From positions 1-58,825 of the forward strand of contig JAANBB010000248.1 in assembly GCA_014621425.1 (NCBI GenBank): a stretch of 58,825 bases of DNA, read 5' to 3'. Shown piece after piece: positions 7,166-27,336 of this stretch. The notes beneath the pieces are model-generated. The model worked only from the letters and a program-made list of their open reading frames with translations. It was not told where the DNA came from and ran no database searches. The translations under genes were made by a program, and so were the position numbers. Source of the DNA: Cylindrodendrum hubeiense. Lineage: Eukaryota > Ascomycota > Sordariomycetes > Hypocreales > Nectriaceae. Positions within the stretch are counted from its first letter, which is position 1, and each line of letters starts with the position of its first letter.

Positions 7166-7616
7166 GATTGCTGGTTTGGTTGTGTATGAGATCAGAAAGC
7201 TGATCTTGATTGTGGTATTGAATTGCGGGACGAAGATGACTTGTGTTTTGGAGTTCTCATGTAAAGCGACTGCTCAATCACCAGCCTACAGCAGCTCCTC
7301 CGGGTTTATCTACCTGGGGACCGTCCTCTGCGCGACGATGCACTACGAGGGTGTGCTCCACAGACGAGTGTGGTGGAGCTCCATCCAGCTCCATTTCCAT
7401 CCGCCGGCAACGACGCTAGCGCATTCATCTCCGTGGTCGGGTGGAGTCTTGGATCTCATGAGCTCCTCCGAGAGATGTCGCGAAAAGAGGGAGCAGACCC
7501 CGCGCGATGGAACAGGTGCGACTTTATAACCAGAGCTGCTCTTCTAGTCGCTCTCAGAGTATCTCATTCACCTCTATTCCATTACTCATCCCGATCCCAA
7601 CCCGTGCGAATTCACC
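7166..7616. promoter_or_regulatory. Bidirectional promoter, dehydrogenase / glutathione transferase 1
   Basis: 451 bp between divergent start codons. It contains GGTGGAGCTCCATCC (7372-7386) and two half-type sites, GCAGCTCCTCCG (7291-7302) and TGAGCTCCTCCG (7459-7470), all related to the cluster palindrome. TTTATAA at 7523-7529 is a likely TATA box for the transferase. A 13-mer CGACGCTAGCGCA (7411-7423) reappears exactly in the oxoprolinase promoter at 11840. Confidence 0.55.
7372..7386. promoter_or_regulatory. Cluster palindrome copy (GGTGGAGCTCCATCC)
   Basis: Perfect GGAGCTCC core with a partly symmetrical flank. It lies about 207 bp from the dehydrogenase ATG and 231 bp from the transferase ATG, so one site could serve both genes. 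Confidence 0.45.
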
Positions 7617-8568
7617 ATGTCTTTCGGAAAGCTTTACTGGTACCCCAAGGCGCCTCGGGCGACCATGTGCCTGTTCATCGCCGAATACAACAAGTACATT
7701 CCCTCTAGCCACCCTTGCATCTGGCCAAGGCTAACCGCGTCACAGGCTAGATATTGAGTATGTGGAGGCGTGGCCAATCAAGGTCGACGCGAGCAAGGGC
7801 GGAGTGGGGGAGGACTACCGTATGCATCACCACCACCTGCTGCGCTTCTGTGAATCCCGGTGCTGACTATCACGCCAGTATCAAAATTCCCTCCGGGCAA
7901 AGTCCCGGCTCTAGAGCGACCCGATGGATTCAATCTGTATGAGTGTATCCCTGTCTCTATCTACCGTATGTCAACGCTCCCCACAGGTACTTCTACACCA
8001 ATGGCTGCTAATTATTGAACTAGTGGCGAAGCAAGACCCCAACACCAAGCTGCTGGGTTCATCTCTTGAGGAGGAAGCCACAGCTCTGAAGTGAGTACAC
8101 GGCAAGTGTAAATTGGCGATGGCGAACGTTTCTAACCTCACTGCAGGTGGTCATCCTTTGCCAACAGCGAACTCCTCCCCCCGATCATGGCTTGGATCAA
8201 CCCTGTGATTGGCAAATCGCCTTCAACGCCGGAGATCCTTGCTACCGTGGAGAAGAACAGCGAGGCCATGGTCAGCGTCGTCGAGAAGGCCCTAACAGGC
8301 AAGAAGTACCTTGTGGGGGAGACTCTGACCCTTGCCGATCTGTTTGTCGTAGCTGCCATTTCCAGGGGCTACCAGTTCGTGAGTACCCCACACGACGCTC
8401 AGACGTGGACTCACTTGTGCATATTGAAGAGCTTAACTAACGTCCTCTTAGGTATTTACCAAGAAGTGGGCTGCCAGCCACCCCGCTATTCACGAGTGGT
8501 GGTTGAGACTAAAGAGCGATCCCATTTGGGTTAAGATTGATGGCGAGCCTGTGGTCCTAGATGACTGA
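7617..8568 (+). CDS. Glutathione S-transferase 1 (eEF1B-gamma-like class)
   Basis: Six exons: 7617-7693, 7746-7819, 7879-7965, 8024-8090, 8147-8378 and 8452-8568, giving 217 residues. All introns are GT-AG and several have CTAA(C/T) branch sites. The N-terminal thioredoxin-like half reads MSFGKLYWYPKAPRATM and includes FPPGKVPALERPDG, the cis-proline (VPAL) and E/D glutathione-binding region. The all-helical C-terminal half includes LVGETLTLADLFV (the N-capping and hydrophobic-staple region) and the RGYQF|VFTKKWAATHP segment typical of eEF1B-gamma-like fungal transferases. It would conjugate glutathione to, or isomerise, a cytosolic substrate. A paralog on the minus strand at 25.2-26.0 kb shares two intron positions but lacks the other three. 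Confidence 0.88.
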
Positions 8569-8971
8569 GTGGAGGAATATCCTGTGCACGATAGTTAGAA
8601 ACACCATGACTCAAATATGACATGATGAATTTTCACAATTTTAATCTTCCAACACAGTGACCATGACAAGCATATATGGATAAATTTGATTAGACTATGT
8701 GCTTCTTTGAATATTGTTGTCGTATGGCTGATACTAAACGGTCCTACTCTTCACAATGCACAGCCAGGGCGGCGCGTTGTGAGCTCCATCCTCCACTCGG
8801 GCCTCGTTCTTAAAATTCGCTACCCTAGAGCCCCAGAGTGCACGACTGAAATTCATTCAGATAATGGTATGAAAAATAATAGATGAGATAATCTTAGTTT
8901 CTTTATTTCATTTAAATGCTTGAGCTCTATGGCAAATCATTACGATTTGTATTTTATTCTGAACCATCCTT
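8569..8971. other. Convergent intergenic region
   Basis: 403 bp between convergent stop codons, AT-rich, no gene visible. GAGCTCCATCCTCCACTCG at 8781-8799 resembles half of the cluster palindrome, but its position between two 3' ends argues against promoter function. Confidence 0.4.
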
Positions 8972-9960
8972 TTACAAGGAGTTCTCTAGGTCAACCAATC
9001 CCTTCAACACAACATCCTTCTCTCCCTCGAACCTCGCACTGGCCACCAATCCCAAAGGCCTTCTGCTTCGGCCTCCACCATAGCCGTAGTAGCGATCTAA
9101 CGCAGCCTTGAGACCGGCCACGCCCAGCTGCACCAAGACCCAGTCTGCTTGGCTGAGGCGCGTTTGGAGCTCTTGCGCCTCGGCAATCTTGCCCTCATCG
9201 TACAACTTGAGGAGACGGACGTGCACGGCGGGTGCCAAGTTGGCGGCCGCGGCAATGACGCCATTGGAGCCGGCAATAAGACCATGTAGGAAGAAATCCG
9301 ACTTGCCAGCAAAGGCGGCAAACGGCTTCTGCGTTCGCGTGTCGTGGGCGACGCGGTGCAGCTTGCCCAGGTTGCCGCAGGTCAGCTTGCAGCCGACGAT
9401 GTTGGCGTTGGCGGCCGACAGCTCGGCGATGATGTCCGAGTCGAGGTCGATGCCGGACGTGACGGCGGGGAAGTTGTAGAGCAGGATGGGGATCGGGGAC
9501 GCCTTTGCGACGTCGTCGAAGAACTTGAAAATAACGGGCTTTTGCATGGCTCCAGCTGGTGCAGGTGTCAGTTCGGGCCGTGTAGATGAGCATTGAGGGC
9601 AGACTCACTCCAATAGCTGGGGGACAGGACAAGGGCATAGTCAGCTCCAGCCTGCTTCGCTTCCTCGCAGAGCTGGATGGACTCCCTGGTGCTCTGCGCG
9701 CCGCAGCCGGCAATAATGACAGCACCGGGAATGCCACTCTCCTTCAGCACGGAAGAAGCAGTGGCGATGACTTCTTGTCGCTCGGAATGCAGCAGATGGG
9801 GGGCCTCGCCGTTGGAGCCCTGGATCACCAAGCCAGCGACACCGGCCTTGGCGAGGCGAGTGATGTGGGCCTTGAGCGCGCCAAAGTCGAGAGTCTCATC
9901 CTCGTTGAAGAAGGCGACGACGGGAGCGTACACTCCGCGAGGGGGGGAAGAAGGAGCCAT
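8972..9960 (-). CDS. DapA / N-acetylneuraminate lyase family aldolase
   Basis: Two exons, 9960-9609 and 9555-8972, joined in phase (TGG A|CT GGA), 311 residues. It is a TIM-barrel class I aldolase. GSNGEAPHL (48-56) is the GxxGE carboxylate-binding loop. Y144 in LLYNFPA is the proton-relay tyrosine. K174 in GCKLTCG is the Schiff-base lysine. Fungal relatives include L-threo-3-deoxy-hexulosonate aldolase and 4-hydroxy-2-oxoglutarate aldolase, both of which release pyruvate plus an aldehyde; sequence alone does not choose. It is divergent from an aminotransferase only 341 bp away. That pairing would suit transamination of a 4-substituted glutamate followed by retro-aldol cleavage (inference). 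Confidence 0.87.
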
Positions 9961-10301
9961 GGTTGTGTATGTGGAAGCTGAATAAACTAAATGTTCAATT
10001 GCGAGAAACAGTCAACGCATCCAGCAGAGCGTTGTCGCATCTTTTCTATCTCATGGCCTTGGGCGGAGCACGGAAGAGAGCCGACGCCCCCACCGTGACC
10101 AACATGTTCAGAGGCGGCCCCTCAGCCGAATGCCTCTCAATCGTGCATGTGGTGCTCCGCCAAGCGGAGTAATTCAGGCTCAAGACAAATGCGAACCCCA
10201 AGCCATGTTGGCTTCGTCCTGCAGTGTACTCCGAAACGTTCCTTCTCTTCCCGTCCTTGTCGTCCGCTACGATACCTTGCATACCCGATTCGCAACTCAC
10301 A
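9961..10301. promoter_or_regulatory. Bidirectional promoter, aldolase / aminotransferase
   Basis: 341 bp between divergent ATGs. It holds a perfect 10-bp inverted repeat, GGCGGAGCAC (10062-10071) and GTGCTCCGCC (10152-10161), and an imperfect GAGGCGGCCCCTC (10111-10123). Both resemble the GGAG...CTCC palindrome found elsewhere in the cluster, in weaker form. GCTCCGC-CAA-GCGGAGT (10154-10170) forms a short dyad. Confidence 0.45.
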
Positions 10302-11629
10302 ATGACCAGCCAGCCAGTCTCAGCGTTCGCCAAGGGCGTGTTCGTCCCCCCGGACAGCATCTTCGACGTGACGAGGCGATATGTCGGCGATGAGTTTGCA
10401 AACAAGGTCAATCTGGGCCAGGGAACCTACCGCGATGAGAATGGAAAGCCGTGGGTGTTGCCCTCGGTGCGGATGGCGAAGGACATAGTCCTCGACGCAG
10501 GGCACGAGTATCTGCCGATCGCGGGACTCCCGCAATTTCGCGACGCAGCTGTCCGGCTCGTTTTCCACGGCACAAAGGCTCTTGCAGAGAACAGGGTATG
10601 TTATCAATTGATCAGACCAAATTCGTATTATGCTAACGTCCCTGTAGGTGGCTTCTTGCCAATCCGTGTCGGGCACAGGCGCGCTGTTGCTCGCAGGACT
10701 TACAATGAAGAAGGCCGGGGTCAGTGTGAAAACCGTCTACATCACAGATCCCACCTGGTCAAATCACAACCTCCTGTTCAAGGACATTGGATATGAGGTC
10801 AAATCCCTTCCCTACTACAAAGACGGAAAGTTCGACTTCGAGAGCTACGTGGCCGCGCTGGAGGCTGCCAACGAGGAGTCTGCGCTGGTGATGCATGCGT
10901 GCGCGCACAACCCCACCGGCTGCGACCCGACTCACGATCAGTGGAAGAAGATCGCCGCGATAGTGCAGGCGAAGAACATTTTCCCCATCTTCGATTCCGC
11001 ATACCTGGGCTTCAATTCCGGCTCCGTCGACGAGGATGCATGGGCCATCAAGTATTTCGTCGAGGACCTGGGCCTCGAGGCCTGCGTGTGCATGTCCTTT
11101 GCCAAGAGCATGGGGCTGTACGGCGAGCGTACCGGACTTACGGCCATGGTTGCCAACTCTGCAGATACCGCTCGCACCGTCGGGTCTATCCTGGCGAACT
11201 CCCAGCGAGCGACCATTTCCAATCCTCCAGTGTACGGAGCCCGGATTGCTGCGACTGTTCTCAACACGCCGGAAATCGCCGAGCAGTGGAAGAAGGATTT
11301 GGTCACCATGTCGACGCGCATTTTGGCGATGCGCAAGAAGCTCTTCGACGAGCTCCAAAGCCTCAAGACGCCGGGGGACTGGTCTCACATCATCACCCAG
11401 TCGGGCATGTTTGGATTTATGGGCATCAGCCCAGCTCAGATCAGCTATCTCGAAAGTAAGTTTCCTCAAGTCTTGATATCCCAGAACGGCAAGCTAATTG
11501 TACGCGTCCGCAGCCAAGTACCATATTTACATGGCGGATACGTCCCGAATCTCAATTGCGGGGCTGAACGATGGCAATGTGAAGTACGTAGCAAAGGCGT
11601 TGGATGATGCTGTGCGCACAGTTGTTTGA
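10302..11629 (+). CDS. PLP-dependent aminotransferase, class I (aspartate/aromatic type)
   Basis: Three exons: 10302-10595, 10648-11455 and 11514-11629, 405 residues. Start taken at MTSQPVSAF after a CACA context. Fold type I signatures are present: GQGTYRDENG near the N-terminus, HNPTG (N186), FDSAYLGF (D214 and Y217 contacting the PLP ring), and MSFAKSMGLYGERTG with the Schiff-base lysine at K251. The AKSMGLYGER form is typical of aspartate aminotransferases. The C-terminal exon ends ISIAGLNDGNVKYVAKALDDA and carries the substrate-carboxylate arginine region (SRIS). It has no clear mitochondrial leader and is probably cytosolic. Aspartate aminotransferases can act on 4-hydroxyglutamate, which would feed the divergent aldolase; this is inference. 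Confidence 0.9.
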
Positions 11630-12326
11630 TAGGAAATGTAGCGTAATTAATCCATCCAATCGAATATTGCTTATATCAAATGAATGTTCTAATTGTTCCA
11701 TGTTGCTATCCCATGCGCGGAACCCGAATCAGGGCATGTCCTGTCTCGCAAGAGTGACGGAGTAGAGCCGAGAGACCCCTGGATTCCAGTCCAGACGGCC
11801 CCAGATCCCAACCAATTACATCGCCACCTCACACGATACCGACGCTAGCGCAACGCGCTACAGGCTTGATAAGCGGGAGGAGCTCCCTCCACCCATGTGG
11901 AGGTGGATAGGTGGAGGGGCACGCGTAGTATGTGGAGGGTGTGGTGGAGGATCGTGGTGGAGGAGGCGACGGGAGCAAATGCCGAGCATCTCTCTGCCCC
12001 CCGCAACAAGCTATCGAGATCGGCCTCCACCGGGCGGCTTTGCTCCTCCGGTGTAGGCGTCCCTCCGCTGCAGGCGGTCATGTAACATAAGAGGAGGGAG
12101 GAGCACCAGGATCAAGCTCCTCTCTGATTGAGACCTTCTGAATTGTGCCATCCGAGTTCGCGATTGAGACCCAGACGATACGCGGGGCAGCCTCAATATT
12201 ATAATCCCGTGCACCACCTGCCTTTCCTCGACGCAACCCATCATACAGCCTATCCGTCTCGCTCAATTTCCAATCTGGGCAAATTTACAAGCTCGACTTT
12301 ATTTACAGTCGCAAATCTAGATCACA
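11630..12326. promoter_or_regulatory. Promoter region of 5-oxoprolinase with several cluster motifs
   Basis: About 700 bp. Contains CTTGATAAGCGGGAGGAGCT, a GATA site abutting the palindrome GGGAGGAGCTCCCTCC (11875-11890). Further sites are a run of GTGGAGG repeats (11896-11970), GCTCCTCCGG (12042-12051), GGAGGAGCACC (12097-12107) and AGCTCCTCTC (12115-12124). CTATCGAGAT (12011-12020) recurs exactly before the MFS gene (20098). The 13-mer CGACGCTAGCGCA (11840-11852) matches 7411-7423. Confidence 0.55.
11875..11890. promoter_or_regulatory. Cluster palindrome copy (GGGAGGAGCTCCCTCC)
   Basis: 16-bp near-palindrome around GAGCTC, directly after a GATAAG site and about 440 bp before the oxoprolinase ATG. 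Confidence 0.5.
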
Positions 12327-15300
12327 ATGGGTTCTCTCCCTGAACGAACGCATGGGATCCGCATCGCCATTGACAGGGGCGGTACCTTTACTGACGTATG
12401 TCCACCCCACTTCCACCCATGAAGTAAGACCGCTCACATCTACCGCAGTGCGTCGCAACCGTTCCTAGTCGCGATGATATTTTAATCAAGCTTCTTTCCG
12501 TGGACCCCAATAACTATCCCGATGCGCCGGTGGAAGCGATTCGCAGGGTGCTGGAGCAGGCCACTGGCCGGTCCTACCCCAGGGGCGAAAAGATATCCCT
12601 GACGGGCGTTGGTACGTTATCATTTGTCGCACTAAAATCGTGAATTGGAAGCTAAAGTATTCAGAATCCATCCGAATGGGCACAACAGTAGCCACGAATG
12701 CGCTCCTCGAGCGAAAGGGTGAGCGCACCGTGTTTGTCGTCACCAAGGGGTTGAAGGTTAGTTGTTATGGCACCCGCTGCGCGACGGCGTCTAACCAACC
12801 CGACAGGACCTCCTCCATATTGGCAACCAGTCAAGACCAAAGCTATTTGACATGGCAATTAATAAGCCGGATACACTGTACTCCAAGGTCATCGAGGTCA
12901 CTGAACGAGTCACTCTAGAGGCCTGGACCGAGAGCAAGCAGCCTGCACCCATCGATATTGCCTCAGACTCCGCGTTGGTAGAGGGCGTTACTGGCGAAGT
13001 TGTCAGAATTCTCGAGCCCTTAGGTCAGTCGCATCTAAACCCTGCCACTAGTTCTAAACTAACGTGCCCAAGATCTCGAGTCAACCAAACAGTCTCTTCA
13101 GGCTGCCTACGACGAAGGATACCGATCTGTTGCCGTCTGTCTGATGCACAGCTTCACCTTCCGAGACCACGAATTAGCCGTCGGCAAGCTGGCCGAAGCC
13201 ATTGGATTCACCCATGTTTCATTAAGTGCCGAGCTTTCCCCCGTGGTCAAGATCGTCCCCCGAGGCAACTCATCCACGGCGGATGCGTACCTGACCCCGG
13301 AGATCAAGCGCTACATCGCCGGATTTGAGTCTGGTTTCGAGGATCTACGGACCAGCGGCTGCCGCTGCGAGTTTATGCAGAGCGATGGTGGCCTTGTCGA
13401 GTTTTCTGGCCTGTCTGGACTGCGATCTATCCTCTCGGGACCTGCCGGTGGTGTCGTTGGATATGCCAGAACATGCTACGACGAGAAGGATGGAACCCCA
13501 GTCATCGGCTTTGACATGGGCGGCACAAGTACGGATGTTTCAAGGTACGTTGCATCATGAACATCACAAAATTCGCCTTCTAACTTGGTATTTAGATACA
13601 CCGGAGAGTTGGAGCAGGTCTTTGAGACCACTACCGCCGGCGTTATCGTTCAGAGCCCCCAATTAGACATCAACACCGTTGCTGCGGGTGGCGGAAGTAT
13701 CCTCACATGGCAGAGTGGCATGTTCAAGGTCGGGCCAGAAAGCGCTTCTGCGAACCCAGGACCTGCATGCTACCGAAAAGGCGGCCCCTTGACCGTCACC
13801 GATGCCAACCTTATCCTCGGACGACTACGTCCCGAGTACTTCCCCCAGATATTCGGTCCCAACGAGGACCTCCCACTTGATATCGATGCTAGCCGCAGTC
13901 TGTTTGAGAGCCTTACCGCTGAGATTAACAAGGAGGTCGCTGAGAAGCTCTCTGTGGAGGAAGTGGCCATTGGGTATGTTATCCGTACGCCTACATCGGT
14001 TGCACCTACTAACTGCTCTTCAGATTCCTCGACGTTGCCAACGAATCCATGTGCCGACCCATTCGCACCCTTACCGAAGCCAAAGGATTTGATGCTGGCC
14101 TGCACAACCTCGCATCATTTGGTGGTGCCGGAGGACAGCACGCATGTGATATTTCCACCGCACTGGGCATCTCACGCATCCTCATCCACAAATACTCGTC
14201 CGTTCTCTCAGCGCACGGCATGGCCCTTGCCGATGTCGTCCAGGAGGAACGCAGCCCATCTGCAGCCACTTATTCCTCCGAGAACTTTGCCTTATTCGCC
14301 TCTGAGCTGGATAAGCTTGAGGATACCGCCATCGAGGCATTGTTGGCCCAGCGGATTCCCAAGTCGCGCATCGTGTCAGAGAGATATCTCAACATGCGCT
14401 TCCACGGCAGCGACACTGCTCTGATGATCCAGGATAAGCCTGGCAGCGGAGGATATCTGGCCGCATTCGAAAAGGCCCACCAGAGCCAGTTCGGTTTCTT
14501 GCCAACTGGACGCGACGTTATTGTGGACGATTGCCGAGTGCGATCAATCGGCCAGAGCCCCAACGATCCTATCCCGTCGTGGCCTACCGAGCTGGCATCT
14601 TCTGAGGCCATTTGGACCACCAAGGCGCGCATGTCCAAGGACGTCTACTTCAAGGGCTTGGGATGGGGCAAGACGCCTGTGTACGTCTTGGGCGAGCTGA
14701 GCCCCCATTCGAAGATCCGCGGCCCTGCCTTGGTCATCGACGATAAGCAGACGATTGTCATCGTGCCAGAGGCCACTGCCACTATCCTCTCGAACACGGT
14801 CGTCATCGACGTGCATGTTGGCACCAAGGCGACTCTGTCTTCAAAGCAGGCCAATCCTATCCAGCTGTCCATCTTCGGGCATCGGTTCATGGGAGTGGCA
14901 GAGCAGATGGGCCGAGCCCTCCAGAAGACCAGTGTCAGCACCAACATCAAGGAGCGCCTGGACTTCTCCTGCACCGTGTTTTCTCCGGATGGTGGACTTG
15001 TGGCAAATGCGCCCCACGTTCCCGCTATGGTAAGTTCGACTAGTTATGATGTTCACGATGACAGACGCTAACTATTTGACAGATTGGTAGCATGGCCTTT
15101 GCCGTGAAGTGGCAGATCCAGCACTGGGGAGACAGGCTCAACCCTGGCGATGTTATCCTTTCCAATGCCCCTGGTAAGTTTTCCTCAAATCTAGAAGTGA
15201 AACTATCATAGCTAATGCATCATCTCTAGATTGTGGCGGTACTCACTTGCCCGATCTCACAGTTATTACGCCTGTGTTCAACACCGAGGGCACCAAGATC

Positions 15301-16797
15301 ATCTTCTGGACAGCATCCCGAGGTCACCACGCAGATGTAAGCTTTTACCTCACAGGATTTAACGAATGATAAATACTGACCCATTGCAGATTGGTGGTAT
15401 TCTTCCTGGCTCAATGCCCCCGAACTCCAAGGAGTTGTGGGAGGAAGGAGCCGTCATCAAGGCCTTCAAAGTAATTGAGGGCGGAGAGTTCAAGGAGAAG
15501 GAGCTGACCGAGCTGCTCATGGCTCCTGCCAAGTCACCAGGCTGCCAGGGAACTCGCTGTCTGAAGGATAACATCTCGGACATCAAGGCCCAAGCTGCTG
15601 CGAACCACCGTGGCAGTCAGTTGATTCATGGTCTCATCGAGGACTATGGCCTCGAGGTTGTGCAGTTCTACAGTAAGTTCTACAGTCGAAATTTGAGATT
15701 AGAAGCTAACTCGAAGCAGTGGAGGAAATCCAAGGCGCAGCTGAGCGAGCCGTGAGGGACATGCTCAGGACCATCTACAAGTCTACAGATGGCAAGCCTT
15801 TAGAGGCAGTCGACTGCATGGACGATGGTACTCCCATCCAGCTCCGAGTTAGTATCGATGAGGCTTCTGGAGGCGCGATCTTTGACTTCGAGGGCACTGG
15901 ACCCGAAGCTTATGGTAAGATTCCTGGTCATACATATGCCCATCACGATCAACATGCTAACACGTCCCAGGCAACTGGAACGCACCGATCGCAATTTGCC
16001 ATTCGGCAATCATCTTTGCCCTCCGGTGCATGGTCAGCATGGATATTCCTCTGAACCAGGGTGCTATCCGACCTATCGACATCCGCATTCCCGAGGCGTC
16101 GCTACTCCAACCTTCAGAAGACGCCGCGGTTTGCGCCGGCAATGTGTTGACATCGCAGCGTGTCGTGGATGTCATCTTCAAGGCGTTCAAGGCCGTGGCT
16201 GCCAGCCAAGGATGCATGAACAACCTGACTTTCGGTACCGACGACGAGGAGAACGGCTTTGGATACTACGAGACCATCTGCGGCGGTTCCGGAGGTGGCC
16301 CAACTTGGGACGGAACCAGCGGTGTGCACACAAACATGACAAACACCCGAATTACAGATCCCGAGGTCTTGGAGCGCAGATACCCTGTTATTCTCAGGAA
16401 GTTCTGTCTTCGAGAAGGCAGCGGCGGTGCGGGTGCCCACCCCGGAGGCGACGGTATCATCCGCGAGCTGGAGTTCTGCATTCCCACCAAGGTGTCTATT
16501 CTCAGCGAACGACGCACATACGCTCCCTATGGTCTCGAAGGCGGCGAGGAGGGCGGCAAGGGCCAGAACCTTTGGGTGAAGAAGAGCGGAAGAGTGATTA
16601 ACCTGGGCGGCAAGAACACCGCCATGATGGCTTCTGGCGACCGCATCGTCATCAAGTCTCCCGGTGGCGGTGGATGGGGTTCTGTAGATGGTTCAACTAC
16701 AGTTAGCACGAATAATGTGGCCGGAACGAAGCACAAGTTCGTGGGAGTTGCGAACGGAACAGTAGACATGATTCAGTCAATGGGCGAATCGGCTTGA
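12327..16797 (+). CDS. 5-oxoprolinase / hydantoinase (HyuA-HyuB fusion), ATP-dependent
   Basis: Twelve exons: 12327-12395, 12449-12611, 12665-12756, 12807-13023, 13073-13544, 13596-13973, 14024-15029, 15083-15173, 15230-15336, 15390-15672, 15720-15914 and 15971-16797. They sum to 3900 nt with phase preserved throughout, 1299 residues, the normal size of eukaryotic 5-oxoprolinases. Domains in order: HydA N-terminal ([12 protein letters not shown] phosphate-binding strand; [17 protein letters not shown]), hydantoinase A ([38 protein letters not shown]), hydantoinase B ([49 protein letters not shown]). The family opens a lactam or imide ring (5-oxo-L-proline to glutamate, or hydantoins) at the cost of ATP. 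Cytosolic. It lies between the aminotransferase and the Fe(II) oxygenase, so a substituted pyroglutamate is an attractive but unproven substrate. Confidence 0.93.
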
Positions 16798-17771
16798 GGT
16801 TTGGCTGCGGGTTTAGCATAATTGTTTCATTATACATGATAGAGCAAAATACTTATGATCAACTACTTTCTGCATATTTCTCAGTCATTGCAGAAATATC
16901 CCGTTGGATGTGAGCTGCACTCAGGGTTAAGTGACAGGGAACATGTTGCCGGGTCGACTCAGGGAGCACCAACAGATCTATACGGGGCATCCAATTACGG
17001 GAGAAGCTAGCTGCTTCTGTCCTTGCCCGATCCATCACCCCGCAGATCGCTGAAGAGGCCATGTGATGCTTGTGCAGCGTCGCTACGGGCCCCATGCATC
17101 TCCACAACTGCCGACATCTCCACTGGCGCCCGTCGAGATCAGACGGGCCCAGGACATACCCCACAGAGTTCCCAGCGACCTGCGTGAACTCTTAGCCTAG
17201 TGTTATCATGCTTTTAGTATTATCGCCTAAATATAGGGCTCGGCTTTAGTGTACAGGAGATGCAATCTGCATTTTGCAATCCGAGTATCAACAGATATAT
17301 TCATACGGCTGCGATGTTCCATATGAGCTCCCTTTGGGCAGGCTGATGTATCACATTACTGAGTCAGAAATGCATCTCTCGGCGTCCTCGTGATGTTGTG
17401 TTGCGGTTTTGCTTTTCCGGTGGTTGAAAGGAGCACAGCGAGAGGAGCTCCGGTTTTGGTCTGGTGGGAGGAGCTCCACGATTATCACCGTTTTGGGTGG
17501 CGTCCATGCTCCTCCCGCCGTCTTGTGCCCATCATCGGCGCTGGAGAGGCATCTCGCTCCGCCGACAGGGCCTCTCCTCCGCTCTAAATCCGCTGCTTCA
17601 TCAGTAAACACTGCGAAATCGGTCTCGATTCAGACATATAACTATCATTATCGCCAGTGTCATTCCCACCATCAAACAAGCAACTCGCTCACAACGAGAA
17701 ACACTAATCAACCACTCCATCCGACTGAAAAGTCCATTTCCCGTATCCAAACCCCTCATCTTCCATTCATC
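16798..17771. promoter_or_regulatory. Intergenic region with oxygenase promoter
   Basis: 974 bp. The left 400 bp show nothing I recognise. The right part carries a dense cluster of palindrome-type sites: AAGGAGCAC (17428-17436), GAGGAGCTCCGG (17442-17453), GTGGGAGGAGCTCCACG (17464-17480) and ATGCTCCTCCC (17507-17516). A GATTATC (GATA complement) at 17480-17486 touches the best copy. Confidence 0.5.
17464..17480. promoter_or_regulatory. Cluster palindrome copy (GTGGGAGGAGCTCCACG)
   Basis: GGAGCTCC core flanked symmetrically by GTG/CAC-type arms. About 290 bp before the oxygenase ATG, with a second copy 11 bp upstream. Confidence 0.5.
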
Positions 17772-19101
17772 ATGTCCGTCAGTCTCTCTCAGCTCCCGGA
17801 GTACACTCCTCCCACCCCTACCAAGGAGGACTGTAAGTATTATCCCCGATCGTACGTAATAACTACAACTCACCCAACGCCTCCCAGTGGACTACGTGGA
17901 TCTAGTCAACCTTGACCTTTCCAAATTCGATGATCCTGCTGGCCGAAAAGAGCTTGCCAAGCAAATGTTCGAGGCCGCCACGGGATACGGTTTCCTCACG
18001 CTCTCCAACCATGGCATCTCTGACGAGACGTACATGCGCCAAATGAAGATCGCCAACGGCGTCATGACCATGTCACCAGACGACAAGGAGCCTTACGAAG
18101 GTAATTCAGCCGCAATTCTCCCAATTACCGCTGCTAACTCCTCTTCAGTCACCCCCGAGGAAGATGCTCGCGGCCTGTATGTTGGCTTCAAGCCCGCCGG
18201 ACCTCTCGGACACAAGGGAGGTTTCCCCAAGCAACTCGACCACTACAACATTCTTGTCCACGACCCCAAGAACCGCCCGCATCCCGATATCCTGCAACCC
18301 TACATGCCCGAGACCAACGAGGTCATGCACTTTATCCGAACCAACATTCTCATCAAGTTGCTCAAGCTTGTGGCCATGATCCTCGAAGTCCCGGAGGAGG
18401 CTGTGCTCGCCACACATGCGCCCGGCGGCTCCAAGACCGAATATATCCGCTACGTTAGTTCCATAAAATGCGGCCGCTCGCAGTTTCCAGTGACTAATTT
18501 CCTGCTGTAGATGATGTGTGAGCCCCGCTCAAAGGAGGAGAGTGAGAAGTACCGTGACATCTTCCTGTCCGGACACACCGACTGGGGTACCTTCACTCTG
18601 CTCTTCTCTCAGCCTATTGCCGCTCTCCAAGTGCTTTGCCATCACACTGGCAAGTACCGATGGGTCAAGCACCAGCCCCACGGCATTGTGGTCAACTTTG
18701 GTGAGGCCCTCGAGCGCCTGACCGGTGGTCTTTTCAAGGCTACCATCCACCGTGTGGTGCAGCCCCCTGTGGACCAGCGACACCTCCGTCGTATCGGTGT
18801 CATCTACTTTGTGCGACCCGCAGACGAGCGCGAGCTGGTGCCGATTGAAAACTCGCCGCTCCTCGAGCGCATGGGAGCCAACACACCCATGGACGATAGA
18901 ATCTTCTGCATGGCGGACTACCTAGACGCGAGGAAGCATGGCTGGAAGCGATTCGAGTTTGATCTGGACAAGCCCAGAGACGAGTCGAAGCACGCCGATT
19001 TCTTTGCTGGCGAGTATATCGACCCCGAGGGGCACAACAGTCTGGGCAAGTTTGATCACGTCCCTAGGGAGAAGTACACGATCCCCACTGTTCAAACCTG
19101 A
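17772..19101 (+). CDS. 2-oxoglutarate/Fe(II)-dependent oxygenase, isopenicillin N synthase-like
   Basis: Four exons: 17772-17832, 17888-18100, 18149-18453 and 18511-19101, 389 residues. The DIOX_N-type N-terminal region reads YGFLTLSNHGISDE. The jelly-roll core supplies the iron triad H215 and D217 (GHTDWGTFT) and H273 (KATIHRVVQPP). The usual R-x-S motif that binds the 2-oxoglutarate carboxylate reads R287-I-G289, so the serine is replaced by glycine; related fungal proteins may share this, but it leaves the co-substrate open. Such enzymes hydroxylate, desaturate or cyclise small molecules in the cytosol. Position between oxoprolinase and permease, and two strong palindromes upstream, suggest it acts on the imported compound. 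The substrate is unknown. Confidence 0.9.
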
Positions 19102-19837
19102 TTTCTGTCTTTGAACTGCGTAAAATATGGGGCGGATGAATATTCCGACTTGCGAAGCGATAGCTGTATCTAGAGGTTTATGTGGAGGAACAACACTCCT
19201 TGATGTATGAAATACAATCATTACTGAATTAAGAACCTGTGCCAATTATTCCCTCGTGCATCCACGCCCTATTCACCGCCTGTTCCTAGAATGTTAAACC
19301 GTGCATTGGATATTGTGAGCTTTTTCTTCATCCACCTGGCGACGCATGCGAAGGTCCCTGCATTGCCGCCGATGCTACCCTGCGGCCTCCAGTTTTGTAC
19401 CCTCCATTTCATGAGTCGCGACTCGTATCTCACGCCATCTTCGTTGCAGCCTTCGGGACGATTCACCGAGGGAGCATGTTATCAAAACCGAACCAACCAC
19501 TGGTGGCCCTTGTCAGCAGCAATATCGAGTTTGATAGCTTTCTCGGTGAGCACCCTCTCAACCTGACACTGTAGGCTCAAGCTATCCCCGGTCATTGATT
19601 AGCGCTGATTCGCCGCTGTGGCGAGTAGGTTCGGCTAAGTCACCGAAGCCACGCAGCTTATCTTCCCCACCGCTATCTCTCGTATGAGTCGCTGCTAGCA
19701 GAGGGAAACACGCGCAGATAGGCGGCGGGAGGGAGAGTTCGACTGCTGAGACGTGGTGTGATACTAAACATGGCTATCTCCCGTTCCCTGATTCCCAGCC
19801 CAGATAGTCCCGAACTCTCGCTGTACCGTGCACTGAC

Positions 19838-19857
19838 CTGGGAGGAGCGCCTCCCAG
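19838..19857. promoter_or_regulatory. Cluster palindrome, best copy (CTGGGAGGAGCGCCTCCCAG)
   Basis: 20-bp palindrome with perfect 8-bp arms (CTGGGAGG / CCTCCCAG) around an AGCG centre. About 440 bp before the permease ATG. Confidence 0.6.
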
Positions 19858-20050
19858 ATACAACCACCGCCAAGGACGTCTCTCGACTGTACAGGCGGCT
19901 TTATCAGCCGATCTACTGGAGCAGGGACCCTCTTTTGGCCCGTTCTGCATGCCCCGCGTAGCATTGCCCCGGATTCAACCTCCATTGCAGGCGGTGCTAA
20001 CGGCTCGGATCACGTCCCCCGACATTGTCTGGGGTGAAGTACCAAGGAGT

Positions 20051-20070
20051 CGGAGAGGAGCGCCTCCAGC
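20051..20070. promoter_or_regulatory. Cluster palindrome copy (CGGAGAGGAGCGCCTCCAGC)
   Basis: Shares the 12-mer GAGGAGCGCCTC with the copy at 19838. About 230 bp before the permease ATG. Confidence 0.55.
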
Positions 20071-20299
20071 TGTGACGTGGTCTGGAATCCATTATCCCTA
20101 TCGAGATTGAGAATAACCCATGTTCCTTACTCTCTCGGGTCACATAGGAGCATCCGGAACTCGCAGCTACACCGCGTTGATGCAGTTATAAGTACGCAGG
20201 CCCGAGGACACGAAAACGAGAATATCACAACAGCACTCGACATTCAATCGACATTGACCATCACTCACATAGTCAACAGGTCATTTGGACGCCGACAAG

Positions 20300-21957
20300 A
20301 TGTTTGAAAGGGCCCGCGAGTACTTCTGGGGCAACCCTAGGTCCGCGCTGGAGAAGAAGCTGGTGTTCAAGCTTGATGTCTTCATTCTGACATTTTGCTG
20401 TCTGGCATACTTCATGTAAGCATCGGAGAATAATCTGGAATATTCCTAGCTGACTTTCTAGGAACTATCTTGATCGATCCAACATTACGCAGGCCTATGT
20501 CTCGGGAATGAAGGAAGACCTCAACTTCAAGGGAGCTGAGCTCACTGTGATCAACACAGTCTACCAGACTGGATACATGATGTAAGTTGGCTTGCATTTG
20601 CCTAGTTGACGAGAGCCATGGTCCACTAACGCCCATGCAGTGGAATTATCCCTAACAACCTGCTGCTCACCCGCTTCCGACCAAGAATCTTCTTCCCGTT
20701 GATGATTGTCATTTGGGCTGCCTTCACCATGTGCACGGCTCTTGCCAAACGCCCGCAGGACATCATGGTCATCCGCTTCTTCCAGGGATATGCCGAGTCT
20801 TGTGTGTTTGCCGGTACTCACTTCTTGCTTGGATCGTGGTACACGGAAGAGGAGCTGGGCAAGCGCAGTGGTATCTTCACGGGCTCCGGCCTGGCCGGCG
20901 GCATGTTTGGTGGATTTCTCCAGTCGGGAATTCACAAGTCGATGGACGGACTGCACGGTCTGCCCGGTTGGCGATGGCTGTTCATTGTGAGTTGATCCAG
21001 TCTCATCTGATCTGTCGCGTTCTGCTGCTAACTATTTCCAGATTGACGGCATCATCACGCTCCCTGTCGCTGTTTACGGGTATATGCTTTTCCCCGACAC
21101 CCCGGCCACGACCACGGCGCCCTACCTATCCGCTGAGGAAAAGGCCCTGGCGATTGCCCGCGTGCCCATCTCGGAGGATCCCCCGGTTGTGAACAAGGCA
21201 TTCGTCAAGACCATCTTCAACTCATGGTACTTCTATTCATTCGCCGTTCTGTGGATTCTCGGCAACTGCTCCGAGGCATTCAGCTCCCAGTCCCTCCTCA
21301 ACCTGTACATGCAGGCCCACCCCACCATTACGTACACGGTGTACCAGCTGAACAACTACCCGACGGGAGTTCAAGCGGTCGGCATTATGTCGACGTTCCT
21401 GTGGGCTTGCTACACTGATATCTATGGAAGGCGATGGATTACGGGATACTACAATGCCGTCGTCGGAATCGTCACATCGGTCATTATTCTCGTCCCCAGC
21501 ACTACCACCGCCGGTCATTTCGGAGCCTACTACTGGGCGGGCTCCATCTACTGCTGCCAGGCGACCTTCTTTGCATGGGCAAACGACACGCTCCGCAGCA
21601 AGCCCCCTGCCATGAGAGCCGTGGTCATTGGCGCCATGAACTTTTCAGGAAACTTCTTCCAGGCTTGGTGGCCCCTGATCTTCTACCGTGCTGATGCGGC
21701 GCCAAAGTTCACTGTTAGTACCACCCTTCGCTTAGTTCCCCGCTTTGCGATTCAGTTCCAGCTAACTCGTCTAATAGCGCGGCATGTGCTGCATGATTGC
21801 CATTTGCAGCTTGCTCGCCATCTGGGTTACCGTTATGGTCTGGTACGAGAGGCGTGACAAGAAGGAGCAGGCCATACTCGAAGGACAGGCCATTGTTGAG
21901 GCTGCTGACGCGAAGACTGCGGATGTCGAGACGATGGATGTCGACAAGAAGGTCTAG
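20300..21957 (+). CDS. MFS permease, anion:cation symporter group (allantoate/Dal5-like)
   Basis: Five exons: 20300-20415, 20462-20581, 20641-20986, 21042-21713 and 21778-21957, 477 residues. The layout is that of the ACS family: charged N-terminus (EKKLVFKLDVFIL), first helix then NYLDRSNITQAYVSGM, the NTVYQTGYMIGIIPNNLLL pair, RFFQGYAESCVFAGTHFLLGSWYTEEELGKRSG (MFS signature region), and a long central loop beginning PDTPATTTAPYLSAEEKALA. The second half includes TDIYGRRWITGYYN and the NFSGNFFQAWWPLIFY helix, with a charged C-terminal tail (YERRDKKEQ). About 12 membrane helices are expected. Relatives import allantoate, ureidosuccinate, nicotinate, pantothenate or similar organic acids across the plasma membrane. 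It is the likely uptake system of the cluster. Confidence 0.92.
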
Positions 21958-22553
21958 CGCTAACGATGCGCTGAGAGCTCTGACCTCGCGCCCTACAGTC
22001 TCAGGGCGTCTGGCCTTTATCTGTCTTACCGTATCGCAGTCATATTATTCTCTACCTGCTTCCTCTCTGAACGTAGCCTCGTGGCACTCCCGCATTAACG
22101 TAGTAATTTCGACACTATAGTGAACAGGCCCATCCATGCACAGCCTGTCATTGTTTGAGCCACGTCGCCGACTATGCCTCTTATCTTCAACCCTACCCGT
22201 GGTATCGCATCAGCGAGGGAGGAGCCCCTCCCGCCCGCAGGACTGCTCCATCGAGATAGCGCTATCGCCATTGGCTATTGGCCTCGCCCCCTGATAGCAA
22301 TGACACACGCTCCCCCGGTCCATCGAGATAGCCAATGGAAGGGGCAGCTTTGCAATGCCCAATGGCTTCCCCGGCCACCCGCATCGGATATCGGACATGG
22401 AGACTGACAACCCAACGGCGACAAGGGTCCCCGTCGGCAGAGTGCATCCAACGCAGCTTCCCCTCACATCTTGAATCGGATACTGATCCATATGCTGGCA
22501 TGTTCAGATCCAGATAAACACCACGGAAGCAACATATCCAACCCGGTCTCGTC
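21958..22553. promoter_or_regulatory. Promoter region of the C2H2 activator
   Basis: 596 bp. Holds GGGAGGAGCCCCTCCCG (22217-22233). A 14-mer TCCATCGAGATAGC occurs twice (22247-22260 and 22319-22332). The 12-bp perfect palindrome GATAGCGCTATC is at 22255-22266. CCATTGG/CTATTGG and CCAATGG sites are nearby. These look like paired GATA and CCAAT inputs beside the cluster site. Confidence 0.5.
22217..22233. promoter_or_regulatory. Cluster palindrome copy (GGGAGGAGCCCCTCCCG)
   Basis: Perfect GGGAGG/CCTCCC arms. Its complement nearly matches the copy at 27105 before the reductase, including the adjoining GCGGGCGG. About 320 bp before the activator ATG, which would allow autoregulation. Confidence 0.6.
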
Positions 22554-25081
22554 ATGTCATCGACAATCGAGGTTTCCTCGACGCCACCCGTCGCTCCTAA
22601 TGCGGCCCTGCGCCCTTTTGCTTGCCCGGCCTGTTCCAGCCGTTTTACTCGACTAGTATGACGTCGCGTGCGGCATTGCAAAGTGAAGCTGCTGACCCTG
22701 AGAAAAGGAAAATTTGAACCGACATACGCGATCTGGTACATTCAGCGGTGGCATACAATTAACGGACCTCGACTGACGCTTTGACTTTCAGTTCATCGAG
22801 AATCCAACCAGAGGCCGTTTCCATGTCCCCACTGCGATGTCTCATTCTCCAGGAGGTGAGTGCGCCACAAGCCTTCACGCCTACCTCTCAGTTACTGACA
22901 AGCCTTTAAGTGATTTGAGAAAGAGGCACATCAAGAAGTCTCACAAAAGGTCCATCTCGCCAAAGTCACCAGTGGAATCTATTCCTCCTCCACCAAATCC
23001 ACCTGTCGAAGAGGTGAGCATATCGCAACATTATTCATCAATAACGTGTCTAACCTGCATCACCTAGACACCAGAACAAACTCAGGATGCATTTTCTCCT
23101 CACGATGTCTCATGGCTCTTCAAGCTCCCCCAGTATATTGCGGCATATTTCGACAAGTTCCACCCTGCGTTCCCTGCTCTACATAAGCCAAGTATTGACA
23201 TGGCAACCACAAAAGAGCCGCTACTGCAAGCAATCGCTTGCATTGGGGCCGTCTATCATGCTCCAGGTCACAAATTCAGCATGCTGCTCTTCAAAGCTGG
23301 CCTGAAGAGCCTTGATCAATATGTACGGTTGTCCTCGCACTTTGGGCGTAAGCATGAAACTTACAATTCATAGACTCGCGACGATCGCTCTAGATTCCGG
23401 GAGGTCTGGGTCATACAAGCCTATGTCCTCTTCGAGTATTATGCCATCTACTGTTGTCAAGACAGGCTGTTTCCCAGAGCCCTAAAGATCCATCGAAACC
23501 TTGTCGATGCCGCGCGTGAGTATCAAATGCTCCAGGACGGCGCAGCATTGAATAGTGGCAGCCCCGATGCCGCAATGAACATGAATGGTGAATTCGATAC
23601 AGAGGATACTAAATGGAAAACATTCGTTGAAAGCGAATCACAAAAGAGGTTGGTATTGAACCATCATTCTTACCTTTTGATCCGAATTACGACTAATACC
23701 GGGGCAGGATCATGTACTCGATCTACTATCTGGACTCTCAAATGGCCATCACCTGCAACATAAGACCGCTTCTGTCTGCACTGGAGCTGAAATACGAGCT
23801 TCCCTGCCCAGATAACCTCTGGTCTGCACCCAATGCTACTTCGTGGAGTTTGCTTCTCCAAGCTCAGGATTCATCCATGAACATGAACGAAGAGGACGAT
23901 TATGAAGGAAATACCGATCCACGGCCAGCACACGGCGATCTTTACGAGTGCCTATTACATTTGATCCATCCGAATCGCTCTGTGGGACAACCCCTCGGAC
24001 TTCTATGGTACTCGCCATTCGCATCACTCATTTTGATCATGCAGATGCAGATGATGATCCGAGATATGACCATGGCTAGCATCTTTTTCGCAGCAAATGT
24101 TACTCTTGGATCAACAAGACGCAACCTGTTGGTTGTCCGCCTGCAACTTTCTTTCTTCCACTGACATTTCTACAGGTCAATATTATCAGAGGAGAACCGG
24201 ACGCAGATACTTCAAGCTCTTCATAGCTTAGCAGGTGATTTGCCTATTTTCCGCCCAGTGGTAACCATGCTAACGGAACCCACAAGACCTCATACCCAAG
24301 CTTGAAACTCTCAATCTTTTAGACGACACGACCATATTTGGGATTGACGAAAATGCCCAACCCGACCGAGGAAATAAGTCTCTCTGGCATTCTGTCTGGA
24401 TTGCATGGCACTATACCGCCATGACCTTGACGCATCAGGATGCACTTCTTACGACTGGCATAGTAGAACTTGGCTTGCCAACAGCGATCTCAAGTAAGTC
24501 TTCGAAGATGAGACTCGTCAAAGCGATACTAATCCTCTGAATAGCGTGCTGGGAACTTGGAAAACCTCGAGCAAAGGATAATCGGGATGTTTACAATGAC
24601 AGAGATTTTATCCGCATCGTAAGTTCACCTTGAGATTACGGAAGGGGCCACAAAATAACCCAGTATTCAGGTTGACCACTTGGAGCAATTGATTGAGCTC
24701 ATGAACACTCCAACCACGGTGTCTGCAATTCCAGACGGCATATCATTCCAGTGCCAAGAAGACCCCTTCATGACCATGCTAGCATTCAAGGCTTGTATCA
24801 TGGGTTGGCGCGTGGTTCGCTTGATGGCATTAAGCGTAGATCACAAAATCTTGACCGGCGAGCTGCCGATAAAGGAGAGTATATCTACCTCTTTAGCCCG
24901 AGTGGTTTTAGCCAGATTGATGGATGCAGTCGACTCTGGAGGACAAAGCTTCATTATTGGGACCAGTTCGGATTCTCGATATCTGCATTGGGCAGCGAAG
25001 GCATTCTCATTGAGAGATACATGGCCAACTGGATCATGGATGGTAGCTGTCTTTCAAGAAACCCAGCGTGAAGTTGTATAG
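22554..25081 (+). CDS. C2H2 zinc-finger transcription factor with fungal-specific regulatory domain
   Basis: Eleven exons: 22554-22655, 22708-22735, 22792-22855, 22911-23013, 23068-23322, 23374-23648, 23708-24127, 24176-24234, 24287-24493, 24545-24618 and 24671-25081. These total 1998 nt in phase, 665 residues. The first four exons assemble two tandem fingers. Finger 1 is CPAC, SSRFTRLENLNR, then H-TRSV-H. Finger 2 is CPHC, DVSFSRSDLRKR, then H-IKKS-H. Both have the canonical C-x2-C-x12-H-x4-H spacing, and introns interrupt both fingers. After a proline-rich linker, the fungal-specific transcription factor domain starts around PQYIAAYFDKFHPAFPALHKPS. Nuclear DNA-binding protein. The exon 7/8 junction is the least certain. 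Position inside the cluster and a palindrome in its own promoter make it the prime candidate regulator. Confidence 0.82.
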
Positions 25082-25177
25082 AATTAGTATTGGGTATTCT
25101 CCTGGGGCATTACGGTTAGGCATTATTTTTCGGCATTATTGTTAGGTATTCTAATTCAACAACTGCTAATGAACCAT

Positions 25178-25974
25178 CTACAGTCCGTCATAATCAGGAT
25201 ACGTTCCACCAGCTTCGTCACGGATGACATTTTCTCCAAGGATCTTGGTGAATATCGGATCGGACCTAAATCTCATATAATATTCGTGCACGATGGGATG
25301 CTTCGCAGCCCATGCCTTTGTGAAAACCTGGCATGCGAGGTCAGAGGGTTCAGTTGCATCAATCAGGATGGGAAAACTCACAAATTGGTAACCTCTCGCC
25401 AAACCAGAGATGACAAATAGGTCGGCAATGGTGAGGGTGTTGCCGACGAGGAACTTCTTTCCTGCAATCTCCTTCTCGACGGCTCGGACTGTCAACTCGC
25501 AGTTCTCCTCCAGTTGTGCCAAGATCTCAGGACTTGAAGGGGCCCGCCCAATGATCGGGTTAATGAATGCCATAATCGGTGGCAGTAACTCGTAATCCGT
25601 AAAGGATGCCCATCGCAGACAGGTCGTCTCCTCAAGAAGGTTTGAGCCGAGCAAAGTGGTGTTGGGGTCTTGCTTCGCCACTGGGAATTATATCACGTTA
25701 GCAAAATTTACACATGGGAGACAAGTCAATACACACAAAACCAAGAGACAGCTATGTTCTCATAAACACAGAATCCATCTGCCGTTTCGAGCGCAGGTAC
25801 CTTTCCAGGGTGGAATTTGGAAAGATATTCTTCACCCACGCCACCACGGTCGGTGTAGATCTTAATTGGCAGAGCAGTAACGATTTCGACGTCAAGTTTA
25901 AGTAGCTCCGCGATGTACAAGACCATGGTCGAGCGCGGGGCCTTGGGGTAGGTGTAAATCTTTCCGAACGACAT
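25178..25974 (-). CDS. Glutathione S-transferase 2 (eEF1B-gamma-like class)
   Basis: Three exons on the minus strand: 25974-25737, 25680-25382 and 25327-25178, 228 residues. The 54-nt second intron is open in frame and could be mistaken for coding sequence. Its boundaries match the intron position in transferase 1 (GYQF|VFTK). Conserved parts are MSFGKIYTYPKAPRSTM, FHPGKVPALETADG, FLAKQDPNT and LVGNTLTIADLFV. It is the paralog of the gene at 7.6 kb with a longer C-terminal tail (EAGGTYPDYDGL). Convergent with the C2H2 factor and divergent from the reductase. Expected to be a cytosolic glutathione-conjugating enzyme; substrate unknown. Confidence 0.87.
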
Positions 25975-26192
25975 TTTGAAATGCTAGGTTGTCGAGACAA
26001 GGGTGGATGATCTGGAACGAGACAAGGGAGCAGACTTAGCTACATATACATGGGTTTTCTACAAGGATCGATATCTAAGCAGACAGCTTATTAACTACAC
26101 ATAGAGGAGCTCATAGATGTTACCCCGCAAACTAAGAGCTTCCCCGGCATCTGGTTGGATTGCGTTATCGATCTGGAGCTCGATGCAGCAGC

Positions 26193-26203
26193 GGGGCTCC
26201 TCC
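26193..26203. promoter_or_regulatory. Cluster palindrome half-copy (GGGGCTCCTCC)
   Basis: One complete arm with a weaker partner, about 220 bp upstream of transferase 2. Confidence 0.4.
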
Positions 26204-27104
26204 AAGGGTGGGACATTCGTATCGGGTGAAATTGTGCAATACAGGGCAGTCAAAGCTTACCAAATATGGACCAAATGTGGCTCGACAGTTGTGGCTGTGC
26301 GAACCGTAATCACTGAAGTCAAGCCATTTTGGTTGCTGTTTCTTAGGAGGAATCATAGTTGCCCACTCATACACGTACAGTATGCACATGCGTAGAGGCC
26401 ACCTCGGGTAGAAGATTTACCGTACAGAAAGCTGAGCCTGCATTGCACCATGGGGAATACCGATATTTGACTAAAAATGAGTTAAAGGGTTATTACTGTC
26501 ACTGCCACTGTAGGTCACCTCTTGCTACTCTAGATATAAGGTGTCAAACGGAATGTAGGGTAGCCTAGTGTGTGTACTTCTCCGACTACTTTCATATCAT
26601 CCAATACCCCATTCGAATTCTGAACGTACTACTAGTCGTTACTATGACCCTCTCCAACTTCAACATAGACTCCCATCTAATCATGGTGTGTACACGCGAG
26701 CGGGAGGGATAGGGCATTCACTGATGAGTATACAGATGAATGGTGCAGCTCATTTTTGGGTCTAAATTACCGGGTTAGAAGGAGCACCCCCAAACTCATC
26801 TACATAAAGCGCCAAAACGAAAGTATAAAATCGGAGTCAGTTATTAGAGTCAGAAGTGGTGATATTTCTAAAGGTGGGTGGTAAAGACAAGAGTTGCAAC
26901 CCATCAAGGTGAGGTTGGGTGAATCAACATAAGCATTTAGAAGTCGTGCACATAGGGCCACGGCTCTAAATCCTTGCTGATAGCACTACAAGCCAGTGCT
27001 ACGCGTACTGAAGTTAGCGCCAGTGCGCTGAAGATTAGGGGATGCCTGCGCTAAAGACCTTGCCCAATGTGGCTGTACCATGGATGTGATAAGATTGTGA
27101 GGAT

Positions 27105-27119
27105 GGAGGGGCTCCTCCC
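27105..27119. promoter_or_regulatory. Cluster palindrome copy (GGAGGGGCTCCTCCC)
   Basis: Near-perfect GGAGG/CCTCC arms about 220 bp before the reductase ATG. Closest relative is the site before the C2H2 activator. Confidence 0.55.
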
Positions 27120-27336
27120 AGCGGGCGGAGCATCCTCGAGTTATTAGGCACCGTTATCAAGCGCCAACAATGACGTAGGAATCCGATATGTAAGCGTAGC
27201 TTTAGATCGGGTTGATAGTCTTCATATATCCACTCAATTCCCGGCTTTCATTCCAGAACCAGGTAATTATCGACGGCTCCCATCAGTGTCAGCCCATCAA
27301 ACAATACCGAACAACTCTGTAATTGAATCTGCAAAA

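Follow-up and report, generated by a model that had tools for sequence, protein, structure and literature searches.

The window described here comprises positions 1 to 58,825 (58,825 nucleotides) of contig JAANBB010000248.1 of the ascomycete Cylindrodendrum hubeiense (assembly GCA_014621425.1) and carries a block of ten genes with seven promoter regions, extending from a beta-HAD dehydrogenase gene (6113-7165) to a gene for a short-chain dehydrogenase/reductase (SDR; 27337-28462). A scan of the window found the short element GHGGAGCNCC in all seven promoter regions, with at least one copy in each. With a probability of roughly 0.78, these repeated sites are the operator of a transcription factor with C2H2 zinc fingers and a Fungal_trans domain that is encoded within the block, and the ten genes would probably have a built-in switch of their own. 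Computation shows directly that the sites exist and are enriched, that all seven promoters have them, that of the factor included, and that the fingers are intact; the role of the sites as an operator is predicted.

The element is real and strongly clustered. Of the 13 strand-matches to its consensus in the window, 12 fall inside the seven promoters (17468 and 17470 being a single site read on either strand) and the thirteenth lies before a lactate dehydrogenase gene. Motif discovery against shuffled promoters, suggested in a first-pass annotation of this DNA, recovers the same word: in an unbiased 8-mer count over the seven regions (5620 bases in total, with bounds that follow our own gene models) GGAGGAGC is the commonest, with 11 copies in six of the seven, and no 8-mer exceeded 6 copies in 300 shuffled promoter sets. 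The corresponding maxima for 400 sets of genome pieces of matching length were 9 copies and five of seven regions; these pieces came from 18 loci, 16 of three kb each plus L020 and L021, which had been picked for motif-like words and are thus a non-random sample of the genome. The central 136 bases of each locus were masked, so that the three-kb loci no longer contain the site, whereas L020 and L021 keep it. GGAGGAGC itself averaged 0.29 copies in 2000 shuffles, with a maximum of 3.

Whole-genome counts do not find the motif equally common elsewhere. GGAGGAGC occurs 3511 times in the genome (11 in the 5.6 kb of promoters), GGAGGAGCNCC 179 times (7 in the same 5.6 kb) and GHGGAGCNCC 1395 times (12 in the promoters, with 0.16 expected by the genome rate), and all three words are rarer genome-wide than their reversed controls (4749, 326 and 2021, respectively). 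According to the complete list of its 179 places, GGAGGAGCNCC has seven copies within 15.2 kb of this contig, and elsewhere at most three within 20 kb (contig C712). An origin of the sites by chance, from base composition or as copies of a dispersed repeat is hardly credible: GGAG-rich words are found in coding DNA too, and an exact GAGGAGCTCCTC lies on contig C10 inside a 2-hydroxyacid dehydrogenase frame, but neither the shuffles nor the real-genome pieces reproduce the clustering, the words are scarcer in the genome than their reversed controls, the flanks of the 22 sites have little in common beyond the core, and a scan of 15.8 kb of genes and 3' regions of the block found no copy of GGAGGAGC.

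The element joins a strong half-site, mostly GAGGAGC and more rarely GTGGAGC or GCGGAGC, to a partial mirror half. GHGGAGC has 22 copies in the promoters; A stands at its second position in 15 of them, C in 4 and T in 3, the base just ahead of the core is G in 16, and C occupies column +8 in 16 and column +9 in 14; the remaining columns carry little information. The mirror half is not due to chance, because NCC follows 7 of the 11 promoter copies of GGAGGAGC as against 5.1% genome-wide (binomial 2.5e-7). With up to three mismatches the full 16-base palindrome GGGAGGRGCNCCTCCC has 12 strand-matches at six places, all within 11875-27119 (100 shuffles: mean 1.43, largest 7). The exact palindrome is found at 19840 and 22217 only, both in the block, with three strand-matches in the whole 47.5 Mb genome and none for its reversed control. 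With up to two mismatches it is not a rare word in the genome (221 strand-matches; reversed control 318), so that the signal lies in the local clustering. The first-pass annotation had described a palindrome shared by the promoters of the block. The sequences it named lie where it placed them (nine checked together, that at 17442 separately) and GHGGAGCNCC is common to all seven promoters, but the full 16-mer is exact at two places only, and the sites at 7372, 17442 and 26193 and the aldolase/aminotransferase pair fall outside the six places that match it with up to three mismatches.

For each of the ten genes, one or more copies of GHGGAGC lie 103-452 bp 5' of the start codon. Promoter 1 (7294-7468), between the genes for the dehydrogenase and a first glutathione S-transferase (GST1), has copies at 7294, 7355 and 7462 on the minus strand and at 7373 on the plus strand (GTGGAGCTCC). 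Promoter 2 (10063-10160), between the aldolase and aminotransferase genes, has GCGGAGC at 10063 (plus) and 10154 (minus; GCGGAGCACC). Promoter 3, of the 5-oxoprolinase gene (11875-12122), contains GAGGAGC at 11877 (plus, within GGGAGGAGCTCCCTCC), 12042 (minus), 12098 (plus) and 12116 (minus), together with seven GTGGAG hexamers. Promoter 4 (17442-17562) precedes the 2-oxoglutarate (2OG) oxygenase gene, with copies at 17442 (plus), 17508 and 17556 (both minus) and an inverted pair at 17468 (plus) and 17473 (minus; GTGGGAGGAGCTCCAC). Promoter 5, of the MFS transporter gene (19838-20068), bears the 16-mer without mismatch at 19840 and with two mismatches at 20053. In promoter 6 (22217-22232) the exact 16-mer, GGGAGGAGCCCCTCCC, stands before the gene of the C2H2 factor, where self-regulation is possible. 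Promoter 7 (26104-27131), between the second glutathione S-transferase gene (GST2) and the SDR gene, has GHGGAGC at 26104 and 27125 (plus) and at 26196 and 27111 (minus), and a one-mismatch 16-mer at 27104.

The factor gene (22554-25081, plus strand) has 11 exons and encodes 665 amino acids with Pfam matches to zf-C2H2 and Fungal_trans (PF04082), the two fingers (CPACSSRFTRLENLNRHTRSVH and CPHCDVSFSRSDLRKRHIKKSH) lying near the N-terminus. Read straight through, the frame meets a stop midway in finger 1, and a broken gene was considered; the intron model rules this out, as introns of 52 and 56 bp restore a canonical finger 1. The intact model agrees with relatives in Ilyonectria (92% identity) and Dactylonectria (86%), and the nearest other match in this genome is 31% identical. 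A search with the factor gave 57 matches, of which five are other zinc-finger proteins and 52 are relatives. By pattern, 18 relatives have both fingers, two have finger 1 only and 32 have neither, the last group including many short or partial models. In all 18 two-finger relatives finger 1 reads FTR[LQP]ENL[NST]RH and finger 2 FSR[SD]DLRKRH, and the reading positions are invariant.

The helix of finger 1 is RLENLNR (R, N and R at positions -1, 3 and 6) and that of finger 2 RSDLRKR (R, L and R). Zinc fingers read DNA antiparallel, and by the recognition code an R...R helix such as that of finger 2 predicts GNG with the middle base open. Published modules directed at GAG carry helices of the R-N-R kind (RSDNLVR and RRDNLNR; PMC5260015). 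Finger 1 on GAG and finger 2 on GNG, read antiparallel, give the predicted site GNG-GAG (GNGGAG). The motif had been picked from the DNA without use of the fingers, so that the match with the finger prediction is independent. One molecule of the factor would thus cover 5'-GHGGAG-3', with finger 1 on GAG and finger 2 on GHG, and a second molecule would face it in head-to-head orientation on the weaker mirror half, the Fungal_trans domain possibly pairing the two. Control by the factor would extend to its own gene and the nine others, probably as activation triggered by a pathway substrate.

Hexamer counts in the seven promoters fit this prediction. Among the 16 GNGGNG words, compared with 1000 shuffles, GAGGAG (18 copies, 4.7-fold) and GTGGAG (14 copies, 4.3-fold) are the most enriched, each with 0/1000. 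GGGGAG is not enriched in the promoters (1 copy, 3.8 expected), nor is CCCCT, the stress element. The sites could instead belong to a general regulator, chiefly CreA/Cre1, in which case the block would be glucose-repressed rather than self-switched. The CreA/Cre1 consensus, SYGGRG, occurs 47 times in the promoters as against 25.6 in shuffles (0/1000), and GTGGAG and GCGGAG fit it and make up 21 of the 47. This explanation is nevertheless unlikely: GAGGAG, which is the most frequent variant (18 copies) and accounts for 15 of the 22 GHGGAGC, lies outside SYGGRG, and a general regulator leaves the presence of 7 of 179 genomic GGAGGAGCNCC copies within 15.2 kb unexplained. CreA/Mig1 shares with the block factor two C2H2 fingers and a G-rich site, and differs in this misfit of its consensus to the main block variant.

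Very unlikely, too, is a reading of the sites by the Zn2Cys6 factor encoded at 28.6-31.1 kb or by an unlinked factor. The Zn2Cys6 gene (Zn_clus domain) adjoins the block, and its class of Fungal_trans-type factors frequently recognises mirrored sites. Such factors read CGG triplets, however, and CGGN6CCG, the one pair tested, is not enriched (2 copies, 2.5 expected); moreover, the 1.2 kb upstream of the Zn2Cys6 gene itself contains no GHGGAGC, and the predicted site of the C2H2 factor fits the element instead.

Linkage in other fungi supports the assignment of the operator to the C2H2 factor. Equal size of the longest contigs served as a proxy for a shared contig, covering the factor, SDR and 2OG genes, with 120 listed homologues each for SDR and 2OG. 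Among the matches listed, 22 of the 52 factor relatives have an SDR partner by this measure, 7 a 2OG partner, 25 either and 4 both. The same named species stands on both sides in 18 of the 22 factor-SDR pairs, and the species belong to Ilyonectria, Stylonectria, Annulohypoxylon, Geosmithia, Aspergillus, Exophiala and Scytalidium, among others. Close locus tags for factor and SDR occur in Stylonectria (g1240/g1238), Xylaria (g335/g337) and Scytalidium (g3964/g3966), and for 2OG and SDR in Neonectria ditissima (g4736/g4741). The factor gene thus appears often to share a contig with an SDR or 2OG homologue elsewhere. The proposal in the first-pass annotation of an operator for a cluster-specific regulator, probably the C2H2 protein at 22.5 kb, is to this extent supported by the shuffled and whole-genome controls, the helices and the linkage.

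Adr1 is a broad regulator that is not known to be encoded beside its targets. Like the block factor it has two C2H2 fingers, and its site, too, is palindromic with a GGAG core; its structure (2adr) is among the solved matches to the fingers of the block factor. UAS1 of ADH2 in Saccharomyces cerevisiae is a palindrome bound by two Adr1 molecules (PMC6769490, PMC2527678); its halves (CTCCAAC...GTTGGAG) point outward and are spaced, whereas in the block the GGAG ends point inward and abut at the centre.

The nearest known system appears to be HxnR with the hxn nicotinate regulon of Aspergillus nidulans, a likeness in architecture, gene position and site type. Pathway-specific C2H2 regulators are unusual in fungi (PMC5746545), and HxnR has an N-terminal C2H2 pair with PF04082 (PMC5746545, PMC8478523) and predicted sites GHGGGG or, relaxed, GNGGDG, its binding sites being undetermined experimentally (PMC8478523). 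The GNGGDG type includes the GHGGAG of the block, as derived from the helices and the enrichment. The view of the first-pass annotation that the site matches no familiar regulator motif is therefore not upheld; GTGGAG and GCGGAG, moreover, fit the SYGGRG of CreA. The block site differs from that of HxnR in having A as the middle base of the finger 1 triplet and in its mirror half, of which the accessible parts of PMC5746545 and PMC8478523 make no mention for HxnR. The HxnR gene lies within the catabolic cluster under its control; the block factor, to judge by its position and the promoter sites, is likewise encoded among the genes that it would control, and the hxn regulon resembles the block further in GATA-type promoter sites and in its 2OG oxygenase and MFS genes. 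The 2OG oxygenase gene is hxnY, and the MFS genes are hxnP and hxnZ. No molybdenum hydroxylase (hxnS-type) domain turned up in the scanned pieces and models of the ten block genes, so that the block does not correspond to the hxn cluster described for A. nidulans. In A. nidulans that regulon is split into three clusters, and a split regulon is conceivable here as well.

GATA-type HGATAR sites lie in 11630-12326, 16798-17771, 19102-20299, 21958-22553 and 25975-27336, and number 33 in the seven promoters as against 16.8 in shuffles (0/1000). ATCGAGAT recurs at about 12013, 20100, 22250 and 22322 (4 copies, 0.33 expected) and is partly extended to mirrored GATA boxes. The abundance of GATA-type sites possibly reflects nitrogen control as in the hxn regulon.

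Several points weigh against the in-block C2H2 factor as the owner of the sites. The Poisson tails (1.1e-12 for GGAGGAGC, 2.7e-12 for GGAGGAGCNCC over 20.2 kb and 7e-19 for GHGGAGCNCC) are descriptive only, as the patterns were derived from the same sequence, which makes the 8-mer test the proper control. Leucine at position 3 of finger 2 leaves the middle base of its triplet unpredictable, and the weak mirror half makes the pairing of two molecules uncertain. GTGGTG (8 copies, 3.1-fold, 5/1000) and GCGGGG (7 copies, 2.3-fold, 30/1000) are somewhat enriched; promoter 2 has GCGGAGC only, and GCGGAG is weakly enriched (7 copies, 2.2-fold, 36/1000). SYGGRG and HGATAR are enriched in the promoters as well, and two sites precede the lactate dehydrogenase gene outside the block.

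Gene models of the block were made by script and by eye, with domains from Pfam (several genes as exon pieces), NCBIfam and solved-structure matches. The first gene (6113-7165, minus strand; exon joins approximate) encodes a 3-hydroxyisobutyrate-type (beta-HAD) dehydrogenase, which in NCBIfam is nearest to tartronate semialdehyde and hydroxyisobutyrate enzymes, far below the cut-offs. GST1 (7617-8568, plus) and GST2 (25178-25974, minus) are paralogues at the two block ends with 65% identity, both with block-type promoter sites. The DHDPS-family aldolase (8972-9960, minus) matches best, among solved structures, the putative DHDPS-family protein 3qfe, followed by human 4-hydroxy-2-oxoglutarate aldolase, its nearest solved relative with known function; its best NCBIfam match, DapA, is below cut-off. 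For the aspartate-type aminotransferase (10302-11629, plus) aspartate aminotransferases are the best solved matches, and the best NCBIfam match is an aromatic/aspartate family just below cut-off. The 5-oxoprolinase-like protein (12327-16797, plus) has hydantoinase A and B domains, in exon pieces. At least six related genes, this one included, occur in the genome; those on five other contigs have 44-52% identity to the piece searched, so that the block copy looks specialised. The remaining genes encode the 2OG-Fe(II) oxygenase (17772-19101, plus), the MFS transporter (20300-21957, plus) and the NAD-dependent epimerase/SDR reductase (27337-28462, plus).

In mammalian hydroxyproline breakdown, aspartate aminotransferase, 4-hydroxy-2-oxoglutarate aldolase and glyoxylate reductase catalyse consecutive steps. 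Given the oxoprolinase and the 2OG hydroxylase, a pathway through 4-hydroxyglutamate is plausible by analogy, though tentative. The MFS transporter would take up the substrate, the 2OG enzyme would hydroxylate it and the oxoprolinase would open the ring; transamination would then yield 4-hydroxy-2-oxoglutarate, which aldol cleavage would split into pyruvate and glyoxylate, and the dehydrogenase would perform the reduction. This route leaves the two GSTs and the SDR unexplained. No description of the cluster or of the site was found in the literature searched, as far as the sources were available.

The first-pass annotation had taken the sites to define the limits of the cluster, with none of comparable quality before four neighbouring genes. 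For three of these the statement holds, as no GHGGAGC occurs in the 1.2 kb upstream of the FMN monooxygenase, carboxypeptidase and C6 factor genes. The lactate dehydrogenase gene, by contrast, is preceded by GTGGAGCGCC (33679-33688) about 160 bp and GGAGGAGC (34103-34110) about 590 bp upstream, possible outlying sites within 33679-34110 (plus strand), so that the block limits are less sharp than had been proposed; the C6 and lactate dehydrogenase starts are one base off and the distances approximate. The lactate dehydrogenase-like gene, which is FAD-linked (FAD_binding_4), is a possible additional target beyond the ten. As candidates for unlinked targets, the seven off-block places with up to one mismatch to the 16-mer were considered, each within a three-kb locus, and none was named; all seven overlap a stop-to-stop frame of at least 75 codons, which is uninformative either way. 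Contigs C712 and C330, with close GGAGGAGCNCC pairs, were rejected as having no clear promoter. Among the best off-block sites is a one-mismatch 16-mer on contig C72 (20188-23203; positions 1501-1516 of that locus), about 0.9 kb from a gene piece with a molybdopterin-binding domain (MoCoBD_2), apparently on its 3' side.

In the rest of the window, a NACHT/NPHP3_N piece adjoins a WD40-repeat piece on the minus strand (34234-37942), the pieces resembling nucleotide-binding WD-repeat proteins of fungal self-recognition. The GC content falls from 51% (1-38000) to 26% (38001-58825), and no frames of at least 110 codons are listed beyond 38025. The tract 38001-58825 is suggestive of repeat-induced point mutation in repeat-rich DNA.

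Since the DNA and the finger prediction point to the same site, the regulon and the cluster are open to direct test. On a broader and still doubtful view, the operators of HxnR-like C2H2/PF04082 factors might be readable from DNA, with two-finger pairs set head-to-head on abutting GHGGAG and paired through Fungal_trans as in Zn2Cys6 factors, and the block might represent a conserved catabolic cluster, running via 4-hydroxyglutamate to the cleavage of 4-hydroxy-2-oxoglutarate, in at least three ascomycete classes. The cluster points to a catabolic pathway that is undescribed in the available parts of the literature searched.

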